From Dehalococcoidia bacterium (GTDB lineage: Bacteria > Chloroflexota > Dehalococcoidia > Bin125): a DNA stretch of 64,000 nucleotides. The stretch covers positions 1-64,000 of the forward strand of contig JAJDYG010000021.1 in assembly GCA_022822855.1 (NCBI GenBank), given 5' to 3'. Both the position numbers and the translations under genes were made by a program. Positions 346 to 37,317 of the stretch are shown here, one piece after another. Each line of letters starts with the position of its first letter. Position 1 is the first letter of the stretch. Below the pieces are notes generated by a model. It ran no database searches and had not been told where the DNA came from. It saw only the letters and a program-made list of their open reading frames with translations.

Positions 346-502
346 TGGGGAGGGAGGGGTTTCGGCGGTTGAGGTGAGGCGGGCGGTGTTGACGTGGCGG
401 AGTTGGGTGGTCTGGGCCCCGTGTCAAGCACGGGGGATCGGAAGGGGGAGGGGATGGGTGCTGTTTGGCGGGGTTTGGTCTTGCGGGGCCGGCGTTGGGG
501 GG

Positions 503-550
503 ACCCCCTCTGTCACTGCGTGACATCTCCCCCGCTCCGCGGGGGAGAAA
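503..550 (+). repeat. CCCCCTC double-hairpin repeat, copy 1
   Basis: ACCCCCTC, then TGTCACTGCGTGACA (hairpin 1), then CTCCCCC/GGGGGAG (hairpin 2) and AAA. This is the most common intergenic repeat in the window. Confidence 0.8.
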
Positions 551-708
551 ACTGGGAGCGCGGGTTGCGGTGTCTGAGGTGAGGCGGGCGGTGTTTGCCT
601 GGCGGAGTTGGGTGGTCTGTGCCCCGTGTCGCGGCGCGGGGCATCGGGGAGGGGAAGGGATGGGTGCTGTTTGGCGGGGTTTGGTCTTGCGGGGCCGGCG
701 TCGGGGGG

Positions 709-756
709 ACCCCCTCTGTCACTGCGTGACATCTCCCCCGCTCCGCGGGGGAGAAA
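709..756 (+). repeat. CCCCCTC double-hairpin repeat, copy 2
   Basis: Almost identical to the copy at 503-550. It is duplicated as part of the 205-bp tandem unit. Confidence 0.8.
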
Positions 757-921
757 ATTGGGAGCTCGGGCTGCGGTGTCTGAGGTGAGGCGGGCGGTGT
801 TGGCCTGGCGGAGGTGGTCGCTCTGGGCCCCGTGTCCCCCGGTCAAGCCGGGGGCAGGCAAGCACGGGGCATCGGAAGGTGGAGAGGACGGGTTGAAGTA
901 GCAGTCGGACTACCTCCGGTG

Positions 922-34837: not shown

Positions 34838-35872
34838 ATGGTCACCGCGATTGAGAACCCCGGCCTCAACCTGGACTGGTTGAATCTGGAAACCGATGAC
34901 GATTTCGAGATCACGACCGGTCGCAAGGGCGTCACCTTGCAGTCGATCAACCAGCAAATGGCCGGTGTTGAGGGTGTAGACCAGGCGGATTGGCGCTCCT
35001 TCGCTCCGCGCGGCATTGAGGCCGACCCGCGCTCGAACGCTCACGCCCGGCAGTACCGCGACAAGGGCGACGTCTGGTCCGAGTCGGCCATGCTGCTCTA
35101 CGAGGAAGCGCTGCAGCGCCAGTGGTCGTCGGCCCGCGACATTCCCTGGGAGACGATCGGCGATCAGCCCGACGACATCGAAAAGGCGATGTGCACCCTC
35201 TGCACATTCCTCACCCAGGTCGAGTTCATTGCCGGAGACGTTCCGGGACGCTTCCTTGAGACGGTTCACCCCGATTTCTTCGAGTCACAGCTCTTCCTCG
35301 GTACCCAGCTCATGGACGAAGCGCGTCACCTTGACGTGTTCCGCAAGCGCGTGTTGGTCAACGGCGGCGGCATGTCGCCGGCCGGCCTCGGCGCGGTCGG
35401 GCTGCTCGCCCTGGACGACTTCACCGAGATGACCGCGATCCTGCACCTCTTCGCCGAGGGCCTGGTCCAGTCGCTCTTCCGCATGGGCGAGCTGATCGGC
35501 CAGAACGAGGCCGAGAAGCGCATGTTCCGACTCTCCGCCCAGGACGAGTCGCGTCACCTCGCGTTCGGCGTCACCCACACCAAGTACACGGTCGAGACCC
35601 AGCCCTGGCGCAAGGAAGAACTGCACCACTACCTCGACATCAACGAGACCGTGCAGAACACGCAGGCCGGCCTGACCACCAACCCGATCACCGGTGAGGC
35701 GCTGGCCGTGCTCGCAGGCGGCGGGATCGAGCACCTCGACGAGGGCTACAACCTGGTCATGCTGATGCGCAAGAAGCAGATCAACGAGTACTACCACCGA
35801 CTCCAGGTGGTCGGACTCGGCGACCGCCTCGATCGCATGGCGCCAGAGCTGCGCGAACTGATCACCGTCTAG
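34838..35872 (+). CDS. Ferritin-like (R2/BMM-like) di-iron oxidase, ligand-complete subunit
   Basis: A 344-residue protein with the full class II di-iron signature in two matched halves: E129-x31-E161-x2-H164 (TQVEFIAG and MDEARH) and E207-x29-E237-x2-H240 (FAEGLV and QDESRH). This is the layout of ribonucleotide reductase R2, bacterial multicomponent monooxygenase alpha subunits and R2-like oxidases. Helix-rich throughout, cytosolic. AGGAAG precedes ATG 34838. The downstream gene is a ligand-deficient relative, so the two may form an alpha/beta complex. Substrate unknown; an O2-dependent oxidation is likely. Confidence 0.85.
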   Translation: MVTAIENPGLNLDWLNLETDDDFEITTGRKGVTLQSINQQMAGVEGVDQADWRSFAPRGIEADPRSNAHARQYRDKGDVWSESAMLLYEEALQRQWSSARDIPWETIGDQPDDIEKAMCTLCTFLTQVEFIAGDVPGRFLETVHPDFFESQLFLGTQLMDEARHLDVFRKRVLVNGGGMSPAGLGAVGLLALDDFTEMTAILHLFAEGLVQSLFRMGELIGQNEAEKRMFRLSAQDESRHLAFGVTHTKYTVETQPWRKEELHHYLDINETVQNTQAGLTTNPITGEALAVLAGGGIEHLDEGYNLVMLMRKKQINEYYHRLQVVGLGDRLDRMAPELRELITV

Positions 35873-35880
35873 AGCGAACA

Positions 35881-35990
35881 GGGCTTGGACATGGTTGGAC
35901 GGAACTGGACAGTTTTGGACACAGTTGGACAAATTTGGACAACATTGGACACGGCTGGACAGACCTGGACACCGTTGGACGCCTTTGGAC
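35881..35990 (+). repeat. Eleven-copy TGGAC array with exact 10-bp period
   Basis: TGGAC ends at 35890, 35900 and every 10 bp to 35990, eleven perfect copies. Most are TTGGACA followed by three variable bases. A degenerate copy (CGAAC) follows in phase at 35996-36000. It lies between the two di-iron-type genes. Spacing by one helical turn puts all units on the same DNA face, as for cooperative binding of a regulator. Confidence 0.9.
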
Positions 35991-36042
35991 GCTGCCGAAC
36001 CGCTCGGACGCCGTACAGCCTCAAACGCACGGGAACATTCTG

Positions 36043-37317
36043 ATGCCGACTCTTTCACCCGCCCAGAAAATGCGCGCGCAGGTTCGCGGCTGGTCCGCCG
36101 AACTGATCGAACGCGCCGAACAGTCCCCCGCTTCCGGTCGCCAGCTCGACAACATCCTCAACATCTCCATCGAGCCCGACCGCGTCGGCAAGTGGCTGGA
36201 CTTCGTCGAGAACGATCCTGAGCACCCGTTCGCTCAGGCGCAGTTCATCATGTTCGAGGACGGCGGCGAGACCGGCCTCAAGCCGACGGCGTCCGAGGAC
36301 GGCATGCGGCTCAGCGATGTCGACATCGGCTCCTACGGCCATGTGCCCGATATCTGGAACTACCGCAACGACCTCCCGCGCGGCACCAAGCCGGTGCCCG
36401 GCATGTACATGCCCGCCGGCTACGCGATCTACGACCGCGCCGAAGTCTGGGCCGAGGGCGTCGCCGACCTCTACGAGGACGCGATCCGCGACCGCTGGAT
36501 TCCGGCCACGGACCTCGACTGGGAGAACCGCGAAGAATTGTCACCCGAGGTCGAGCGCGCCACCGGCCAGATCTGCGCCGTCTACTCGACCTACGGCATC
36601 GCCGAGCAGAAGATCATCTCCAAGTGGCTCGAAGAGATCTCCTACGGATTCCACGAGGTCAAGCTCTTCCTCGCGACCCAGGTCTACGACGCCGGCCGCA
36701 AGGTCGAGTCGCTGCGTAAGCGCGCTCTGCACGGCCAGGGGATCATCGGCAAGGCCCCGCTCTCCGACGTGTCCGAGTCCTGGTACAACGCGCTGACCTT
36801 CACCGACATGATCATTGCGCTCGATGTCGTCTACAAGTCCTACGAACTGACGGCGTTCGAGTGCGCGACCGACTGGGCCCGGTCGGACTTCGACCGCGAC
36901 CTCTTCGCCCGGCTGGCCGAGGACAGCAAGCGCCATCTCGAGTACGGCCTCAAGCACCTTGAGTGGTACAACCGCTACGCCGAGCGCGCCGACCTCGAAC
37001 TGCCGATCTTCTTCATCAAGGCCGAGGGTGGATTGTCCTCCGAGCTCGCGCAGTCTCCGCTCGAGCGCGAGGCGCTGGCCGTGCTCTACGCCGATGGTGT
37101 TGAGCGTCTCGACGCCGGGGTCGAGGCATTGCGCAAACTGCGCGAGAAGCAGTACCACGACTACCTGCATCGCCTGCACGAGCATGGCTTCAACCGAATC
37201 GGCGAAACGGCCACGATCCTCGGTATGGTCACCCAGGATCCGCTGCTCAAGGCGCTCACCCCCGAGGCGCTGACCGAGGGCGCCGCCGCGGGCACGACCG
37301 CCACCGACCGCGACTAA
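36043..37317 (+). CDS. Ferritin-like di-iron paralog lacking metal ligands
   Basis: A 424-residue helical protein related to the upstream gene product: LFLATQVYDAGRKVESLRKR aligns with LFLGTQLMDEARHLDVFRKR, and LAEDSKRHLEYG with SAQDESRHLAFG. At ligand positions Glu161, His164 and Glu237 it has Ala217, Lys220 and Ser295; the first glutamates are also not matched, only His298 is kept. It should not bind a di-iron centre and resembles a structural beta subunit. ATG 36043 is chosen since upstream codons fall in the 10-bp array. The unconserved first 110 residues are an extra N-terminal region. Confidence 0.8.
   Translation: MPTLSPAQKMRAQVRGWSAELIERAEQSPASGRQLDNILNISIEPDRVGKWLDFVENDPEHPFAQAQFIMFEDGGETGLKPTASEDGMRLSDVDIGSYGHVPDIWNYRNDLPRGTKPVPGMYMPAGYAIYDRAEVWAEGVADLYEDAIRDRWIPATDLDWENREELSPEVERATGQICAVYSTYGIAEQKIISKWLEEISYGFHEVKLFLATQVYDAGRKVESLRKRALHGQGIIGKAPLSDVSESWYNALTFTDMIIALDVVYKSYELTAFECATDWARSDFDRDLFARLAEDSKRHLEYGLKHLEWYNRYAERADLELPIFFIKAEGGLSSELAQSPLEREALAVLYADGVERLDAGVEALRKLREKQYHDYLHRLHEHGFNRIGETATILGMVTQDPLLKALTPEALTEGAAAGTTATDRD

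Follow-up and report, generated by a model that had tools for sequence, protein, structure and literature searches.

What is a strictly phased series of short direct repeats doing in the gap between two genes of a Dehalococcoidia bacterium? Here, a stretch of 64,000 nucleotides (the window) was analyzed together with related genomes. The repeats occupy most of a 170-bp gap between two co-directional genes. Eleven exact TGGAC cores lie on the + strand, starting at 35886, 35896 and so on up to 35986, the last core ending at 35990; both direct reading and a lag-10 scan confirmed the exact 10-bp steps reported in an earlier, sequence-only reading. Each unit of the array (35886–35995, + strand) comprises the core and a 5-base spacer, with TTGGACA or CTGGACA as the extended core. 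The core is invariant inside the window array. Of the 11 units, 8 continue with A after the core and 3 with G; the spacer closes with T in 7 units and with C in 4, immediately ahead of the following core, and its three middle bases are mixed. A degenerate twelfth unit follows in phase (35996–36005, + strand), read from the sequence as a CGAAC core with 3 of 5 matches. A single strand of the window contains TGGAC 104 times, and from base frequency the probability that eleven copies would fall in phase by chance is approximately 3e-26. Lag-10 self-identity reaches 70/100 at position 35883, compared with a window mean of 26 (sd 4.8) and a next best value of 48, and the array is thus unique within the window, its peak without rival there. 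A 206-bp tandem repeat of 2.3 copies at 91% identity was additionally recorded at window positions 370–836 with Tandem Repeats Finder.

The two flanking genes, called with a simple script on sequences from metagenome-assembled genomes, differ in their metal ligands. The upstream gene (34838–35872, + strand, 344 aa) is R2-like/ferritin-like and retains both ExxH motifs, as DEARH and DESRH. The downstream gene (36043–37317, + strand, 424 aa) is a weak relative of it at 28% identity, and the corresponding positions, DAGRK and DSKRH, display no such ligand motifs, which fits the earlier description of a ligand-complete gene beside a ligand-deficient one. NCBIfam returned only a weak R2-like match for the former and no match for the latter, and searches of Pfam and of PDB sequences with the flanking genes gave no match. 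A Shine-Dalgarno-like ACGGGAA lies upstream of the second gene (36029–36035, + strand), and the 3' flank containing it is kept whether or not a species has the array. A scan for a consensus promoter between the array and the second gene found nothing; TACAGC at 36014–36019 (+ strand), located 13 bp past the CGAAC unit and reading TACAAC in the related genome G014, may represent a weak −10 hexamer.

The period itself constrains how the array could be read. Relaxed B-DNA has a helical repeat of 10.5 bp, and because the period of 10.0 bp is shorter, eleven sites would drift by about half a turn. The proposal that one helical turn per unit places every site on a single face of the DNA consequently holds approximately, and a left-handed wrap would fit better. 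RNA arrays recognized by TRAP also have eleven repeats, although these are GAG/TAG triplets at a spacing of 4–6 nt; the window array has TGGAC at a 10-bp DNA period and no such triplets 4–6 nt apart, so that TRAP had rightly been dismissed at the outset.

Conservation distinguishes the cores from the bases between them. The orthologous gap of G014 contains the same 11 units, in register with those of G000, the genome of the window. At this R2 locus the two genomes differ at 2/55 core and 14/55 spacer positions, and at a second array, that of the HTH-D locus described below, at 5/60 core and 31/60 spacer positions (p = 1.3e-9 for the contrast, both arrays pooled). Third-codon divergence of the upstream R2 gene between the same genomes is 0.246. 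Spacer divergence is close to this value, indicating that spacers drift at an approximately neutral rate while cores do not. Unit counts are kept, 11/11 at the R2 locus and 12/12 at the HTH-D locus, so that the free variation in copy number or phase typical of unstable repeats is not seen between G000 and G014. An ordinary microsatellite or VNTR would account for a tandem 10-bp period and for lengths at the locus that differ across the genus, but hardly for spacers that have diverged within each array, for units in register between species, or for the recurrence of the phasing at many unrelated loci; such an origin is scarcely credible.

The expectation that the core would be kept while the spacers drift was borne out between G000 and G014, but core type differs in other species. 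When the orthologous R2 gap was compared across 14 species, TTGGACA arrays were present in G000 and G014, CTGGACAAAT arrays in G010, G002, G006 and G005, mixed TGAAC/TGGAC arrays in G007 and G008, a CTGACC array in G011, and CGAAC-like arrays in G012 and G004. G009 and G013 have no array and G001 retains only traces. There is a tendency for this position to hold a 10-bp-phased array, but the core letters are rewritten and the array can be missing. Since the array type varies among species and three of 14 lack it, a role specific to the di-iron locus is not supported: homologous loci lacking the array, which were to count against the initial proposal, do exist in this respect. Moreover, the same kind of array is present at dozens of unrelated loci, and the suggested link to di-iron genes as such likewise lacks support. 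In the gaps of G011, G012 and G004 (L147, L150, L155), a REP-like repeat, CTCCCCC..GCGAAGCGGGGGGAGATGCC..AGGCAGAGGGGG, was observed upstream of the array, and this motif recurs near other loci.

The rewriting of core letters between species raises the question of whether DNA shape alone is recognized. Every core variant keeps a 10-bp alternation of A/T-rich with G/C-rich bases (AAAT or TT versus GGAC/GAC), as would be expected of intrinsic curvature or a site read by shape by a nucleoid protein. However, within TTGGACA arrays TGGAC is conserved as a specific sequence while spacer A/T content is free, and core type follows the subfamily of a helix-turn-helix (HTH) protein, as set out below. Recognition by curvature is, on this evidence, very improbable.

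Searches of complete genomes demonstrated that the window array is one of many. A second long array, of 12 TTGGACA units, was found in G000 at C1:24539-24653, bearing out the idea that other 10-bp-phased TGGAC arrays should be sought there, and a pattern search identified short ones elsewhere in that genome, three long arrays in G014, and many short CTGGACAAAT arrays in the genus relatives G010, G012 and G005. The genome-wide figures rest on such pattern searches and on a profile of 32 elements (A1, R1), for which a covariance model without structure was used as a sequence profile. The R1 profile detected 60 copies in G000, 56 in G010, 47 in G006, 46 in G012, 42 in G002 and 27 in G005; the remaining genomes have fewer or none, and a single weak match lies outside the genus. 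It can be observed that the elements extend beyond the array itself: a promoter-like −10, a GAACAT box and often an RBS with ATG accompany the phased units and a conserved tail. Nearly all are intergenic, and in 41 of 54 cases the downstream gene lies on the same strand; amidohydrolase, PAC2 and other metabolic genes are among these. At G000:C40:1580-2008 (L100, L102), TGAAC-type elements are tandemly duplicated on the minus strand, with three consecutive copies. As a source of the elements, DUF222/13E12 HNH genes were considered and rejected, none scoring above the cut-off in the own genome. A coding repeat was likewise rejected, in view of TGA stops in every frame of the TGAAC and TGACC types and of phasing in HTH genes beyond that of synonymous shuffles.

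All arrays are placed where transcription along the array strand is probable, which is compatible with an element acting as RNA, the transcript of which would be bound or would fold at the 3' end of the upstream gene or in the 5' region of the downstream one. The gap RNA (35873–36045) folds better than shuffled sequences (z from about −2.6 to −2.8), and also better than its spacer-permuted counterparts (−56 versus −50 kcal/mol). However, TTGGAC pairs with itself through G-U, so the repeats fold by default. Also against this reading stand the array of the HTH-D locus in G014, which displays no such folding (z +0.56), the dispersed elements, which have no consensus structure, the lack of any Rfam match in array or elements, and a 10-base period without obvious meaning on single-stranded RNA. 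Because the folding of the gap is not common to all arrays, a role at the RNA level is only a minor rival, and an improbable one.

The main rival to an operator holds that a mobile unit left the solo arrays behind. According to this explanation, the HTH gene, promoter, 3' array and tail together form a unit that is or was mobile, and most solo arrays are deletion derivatives without function where they now lie. Some dispersed elements do hold a complete HTH gene while others lack its middle part, and the shared promoter, box and tail, the presence of up to approximately 60 copies per genome, the varying host genes around them and the difference in array type among species at one locus are all in keeping with it. 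Nevertheless, no transposase, terminal inverted repeats or target duplication were recognised, orthologous positions are kept between species, elements are preferentially located upstream of same-strand genes, and the combination of constrained cores with near-neutral spacers at two loci would not be expected of debris. We consider this explanation rather unlikely.

The arrays are linked to HTH genes. A search with the element-borne HTH protein gave 6–10 matches in each of seven genomes, and one of these lies directly upstream of the second TTGGACA array of G000. This gene, HTH-D (G000:C1:24018-24506), encodes 163 aa, and the 12-unit array begins 30 bp past its stop codon; the arrangement is the same in G014. 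Among 15 genus genomes, relatives of HTH-D at 71–100% identity are present in G000 and G014 only, the same two that have long TTGGACA arrays, a co-occurrence of p ~0.01 if the 15 related genomes are taken as independent and their phylogeny is ignored. Several paralogous HTH genes are present per genome in the genus, most with a 10-bp-phased array at the 3' end. In subfamilies other than HTH-D, the coding sequence itself contains the array, toward its 3' end, with core CTGGACAAAT in subfamily A, CGAAC in subfamilies B and N, and a weak CTGACC in subfamily C. Outside subfamily C, the lag-10 signal near the 3' end exceeded the maximum of 114 control genes, drawn from independent loci that had not been chosen for arrays, in 31 of 35 genes. 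Furthermore, in many HTH genes the phasing exceeds that of synonymous-codon shuffles which keep the protein.

The distribution of the family agrees in part with that of the arrays. It is nearly limited to the genus: among 294 genomes of the class, 11 of the 15 from the genus and a few others have it. The number of dispersed elements tracks the number of HTH matches across 13 genomes (Spearman 0.80–0.90, uncorrected for phylogeny, on approximate counts in which some R1 matches overlap HTH genes). At the R2 locus an array is present in G007, G008 and G004 with no HTH gene detected, and it is absent or a trace in G009 and G001, in which HTH genes are present. Isolate names such as PNGco suggest that the genus is mostly sponge- or coral-associated. 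Some HTH genes, although apparently disrupted by in-frame stops or a frame shift, still have their arrays (L234 in G010:C20; L235/L143 in G012:C16). Regarding expression of the HTH genes, 15 of 43 have a GAAC-N4-GT[AT]C box, mostly GTAC where a LexA/SOS operator has GAAC-N4-GTTC, and the lexA of G000 has GAACGCAAGTTC upstream (L274, G000:C7, ~1289 of the reverse complement). Boxes similar to GAACATATGTAC were also observed in HTH genes, a short way past the −10, and may point to damage-induced or repressor-controlled expression.

The predicted structure of HTH-D is compatible with a small DNA-binding protein. The AlphaFold model is all-helical and confident (mean pLDDT 89.6), with an HTH at residues 21–60, a helix at 62–83 and a long helix at 90–152. 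Against Pfam, HTH_23 scored above the cut-off and sigma-70 region 4 (Sigma70_r4-like) below it; the resemblance of TTGGACA to a −35 element would suit an HTH of the latter kind. There was no HTH_17/MerR match, and the model, being all helix, does not resemble a MerR-like winged HTH. Foldseek comparison with PDB and viral libraries returned short HTH matches only, none with E <= 0.001. In profile comparison with phage regulator families the HTH alone aligned, and weakly; phrog_36 was absent from the HTH-D matches and from the 25 best families for A2.

The statement that no described array of this form was known holds only in part, since BldC sites and the repeat regions of phage late regulators are close in form, although shorter. 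The late regulators Ltr, Alt and RinA (Quiles-Puchalt 2013, as cited in PMC13123087; among them phi13 Ltr and TP901-1 Alt) offer the first parallel. The gene for such a small DNA-binding activator immediately precedes a set of direct repeats located at its own 3' end or beyond it, and these in turn lie upstream of the activated gene (PMC13123087). The position of HTH-D directly upstream of its repeats is alike, as is the 3'-end lag-10 signal of most HTH genes. The known cases differ in having about four repeats (18-bp repeats in phi13; four imperfect ones from −76 to −32 for Alt) at one site per phage, before late operons, whereas the Dehalococcoidia arrays have 11–12 units and are dispersed by the dozen, with host metabolic genes downstream and no terS or late operon; by sequence, moreover, the HTH proteins fall outside the phrog_36 family. 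A scan of Alt of TP901-1 gave no clear 10-bp array. In IMG/VR, the TTGGACA pattern was found in 33 contigs, seven of them with at least four units, compared with 7 contigs for a permuted core, three of them with four units. Two viral contigs hold comparable arrays of 10-bp period: that of L300, with six TTGGACA units, follows a sigma70-r4-like regulator and is followed by terS and terL, and that of L302, with five, overlaps the end of a DUF1492/phrog_36 regulator and adjoins terL and portal genes.

The second parallel is BldC of Streptomyces, monomers of which line up head-to-tail along direct repeats that vary in number, with one helical turn between 5-bp tracts at smeA-sffA (PMC5859096). An RdfS/Xis filament similarly spans approximately 10 bp per RdfS monomer (PMC11963761). 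The likeness to BldC lies in the 10-bp phasing of repeats on the DNA; BldC is a winged, MerR-like HTH protein on AT-rich 9-bp repeats, two to four per site, whereas HTH-D is predicted to be all-helical and homeodomain/sigma-r4-like with a long helix, its core contains G and C, and 11–12 units are present.

Small terminases provide a third comparison, as a ring of homeodomain-like HTH domains contacts repeated DNA at pac, near the gene for the protein itself (PMC4737164). Together with the LexA-like box in HTH genes and the TTGGACA repeats of 10- or 11-bp period in or near phage replication-protein genes (e.g. L287), this led us to weigh whether the arrays are origin- or pac-like, with HTH proteins that play a part akin to that of phage replication initiators or small terminases. 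The SF6 DNA-binding domain, however, has little preference for repeats. No helicase loader, large terminase or capsid gene lies beside the chromosomal HTH genes, the neighbours of which are metabolic, and up to approximately 60 copies per chromosome and solo sites of the R2 type are ill-suited to origins. Pfam searches of the HTH proteins gave no terminase small-subunit match above the cut-off and only a weak Terminase_5 in 2 of 29. An identity as small terminases was rejected, as packaging genes do not adjoin and no TerS domain scores above the cut-off, and an iteron or packaging role for the arrays is quite improbable. In IMG/VR contigs L328–L447 (e.g. L332, 1018–1110), triplet groups of TTGGACA with an 11-bp period, often two groups 66 bp apart, are common among phage sequences, in or near replication-type genes, and look like iterons. 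These 11-bp repeats, mostly short 3-unit groups, were not counted as the same thing as the arrays studied here.

As described above, the evidence points to a cooperative DNA operator, which was among the possibilities put forward initially. The contrast between conserved cores and drifting spacers, the genetic association of this array type with an HTH gene and a 10-bp phasing that persists even inside coding sequence are what this explanation would predict. The array is probably an operator of this kind, bound by a small HTH protein of a family expanded in the genus, with HTH-D the candidate. The best reading by analogy is that it would work in the manner of Ltr/Alt repeat regions or BldC filaments, with one HTH subunit per turn. 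Subunits would bind one per 10-bp unit, side by side, to build a filament or wrap, and since the period of 10.0 bp falls below the helical repeat, a left-handed wrap would be expected of the complex in preference to a straight course. The bound array may then switch the next gene, most likely activating it. In the window, the ligand-less R2-like gene at 36043 would be controlled apart from the gene upstream of it. From their sequences, the genes of the HTH proteins themselves look to carry the same kind of array, and dozens of arrays appear to be scattered through the genomes of the genus. A further possibility, which we put forward tentatively as a minority view, is a self-seeding regulator–operator unit, copies of which would spread, shed the HTH part and leave solo operators before host genes, while new HTH subfamilies with new core specificities would repeatedly overwrite arrays at the same loci. 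The network would then have been rewired by a selfish or domesticated element.

An odd repeat in one gap thus becomes a testable system, a lineage-specific HTH family in which each member has a long phased array, inside its gene or behind it, together with matching solo arrays elsewhere. With 11–12 sites, the arrays far exceed BldC or Ltr sites, which have two to four, and would for this reason be a good case for studying how proteins form filaments on DNA. Core type changes from one paralogue to another and, at one locus, from species to species, which supplies natural pairs for following the co-evolution of HTH specificity and operator. Finally, the results suggest that regulator/repeat modules of the phage type can be converted to dispersed regulation of the chromosome.
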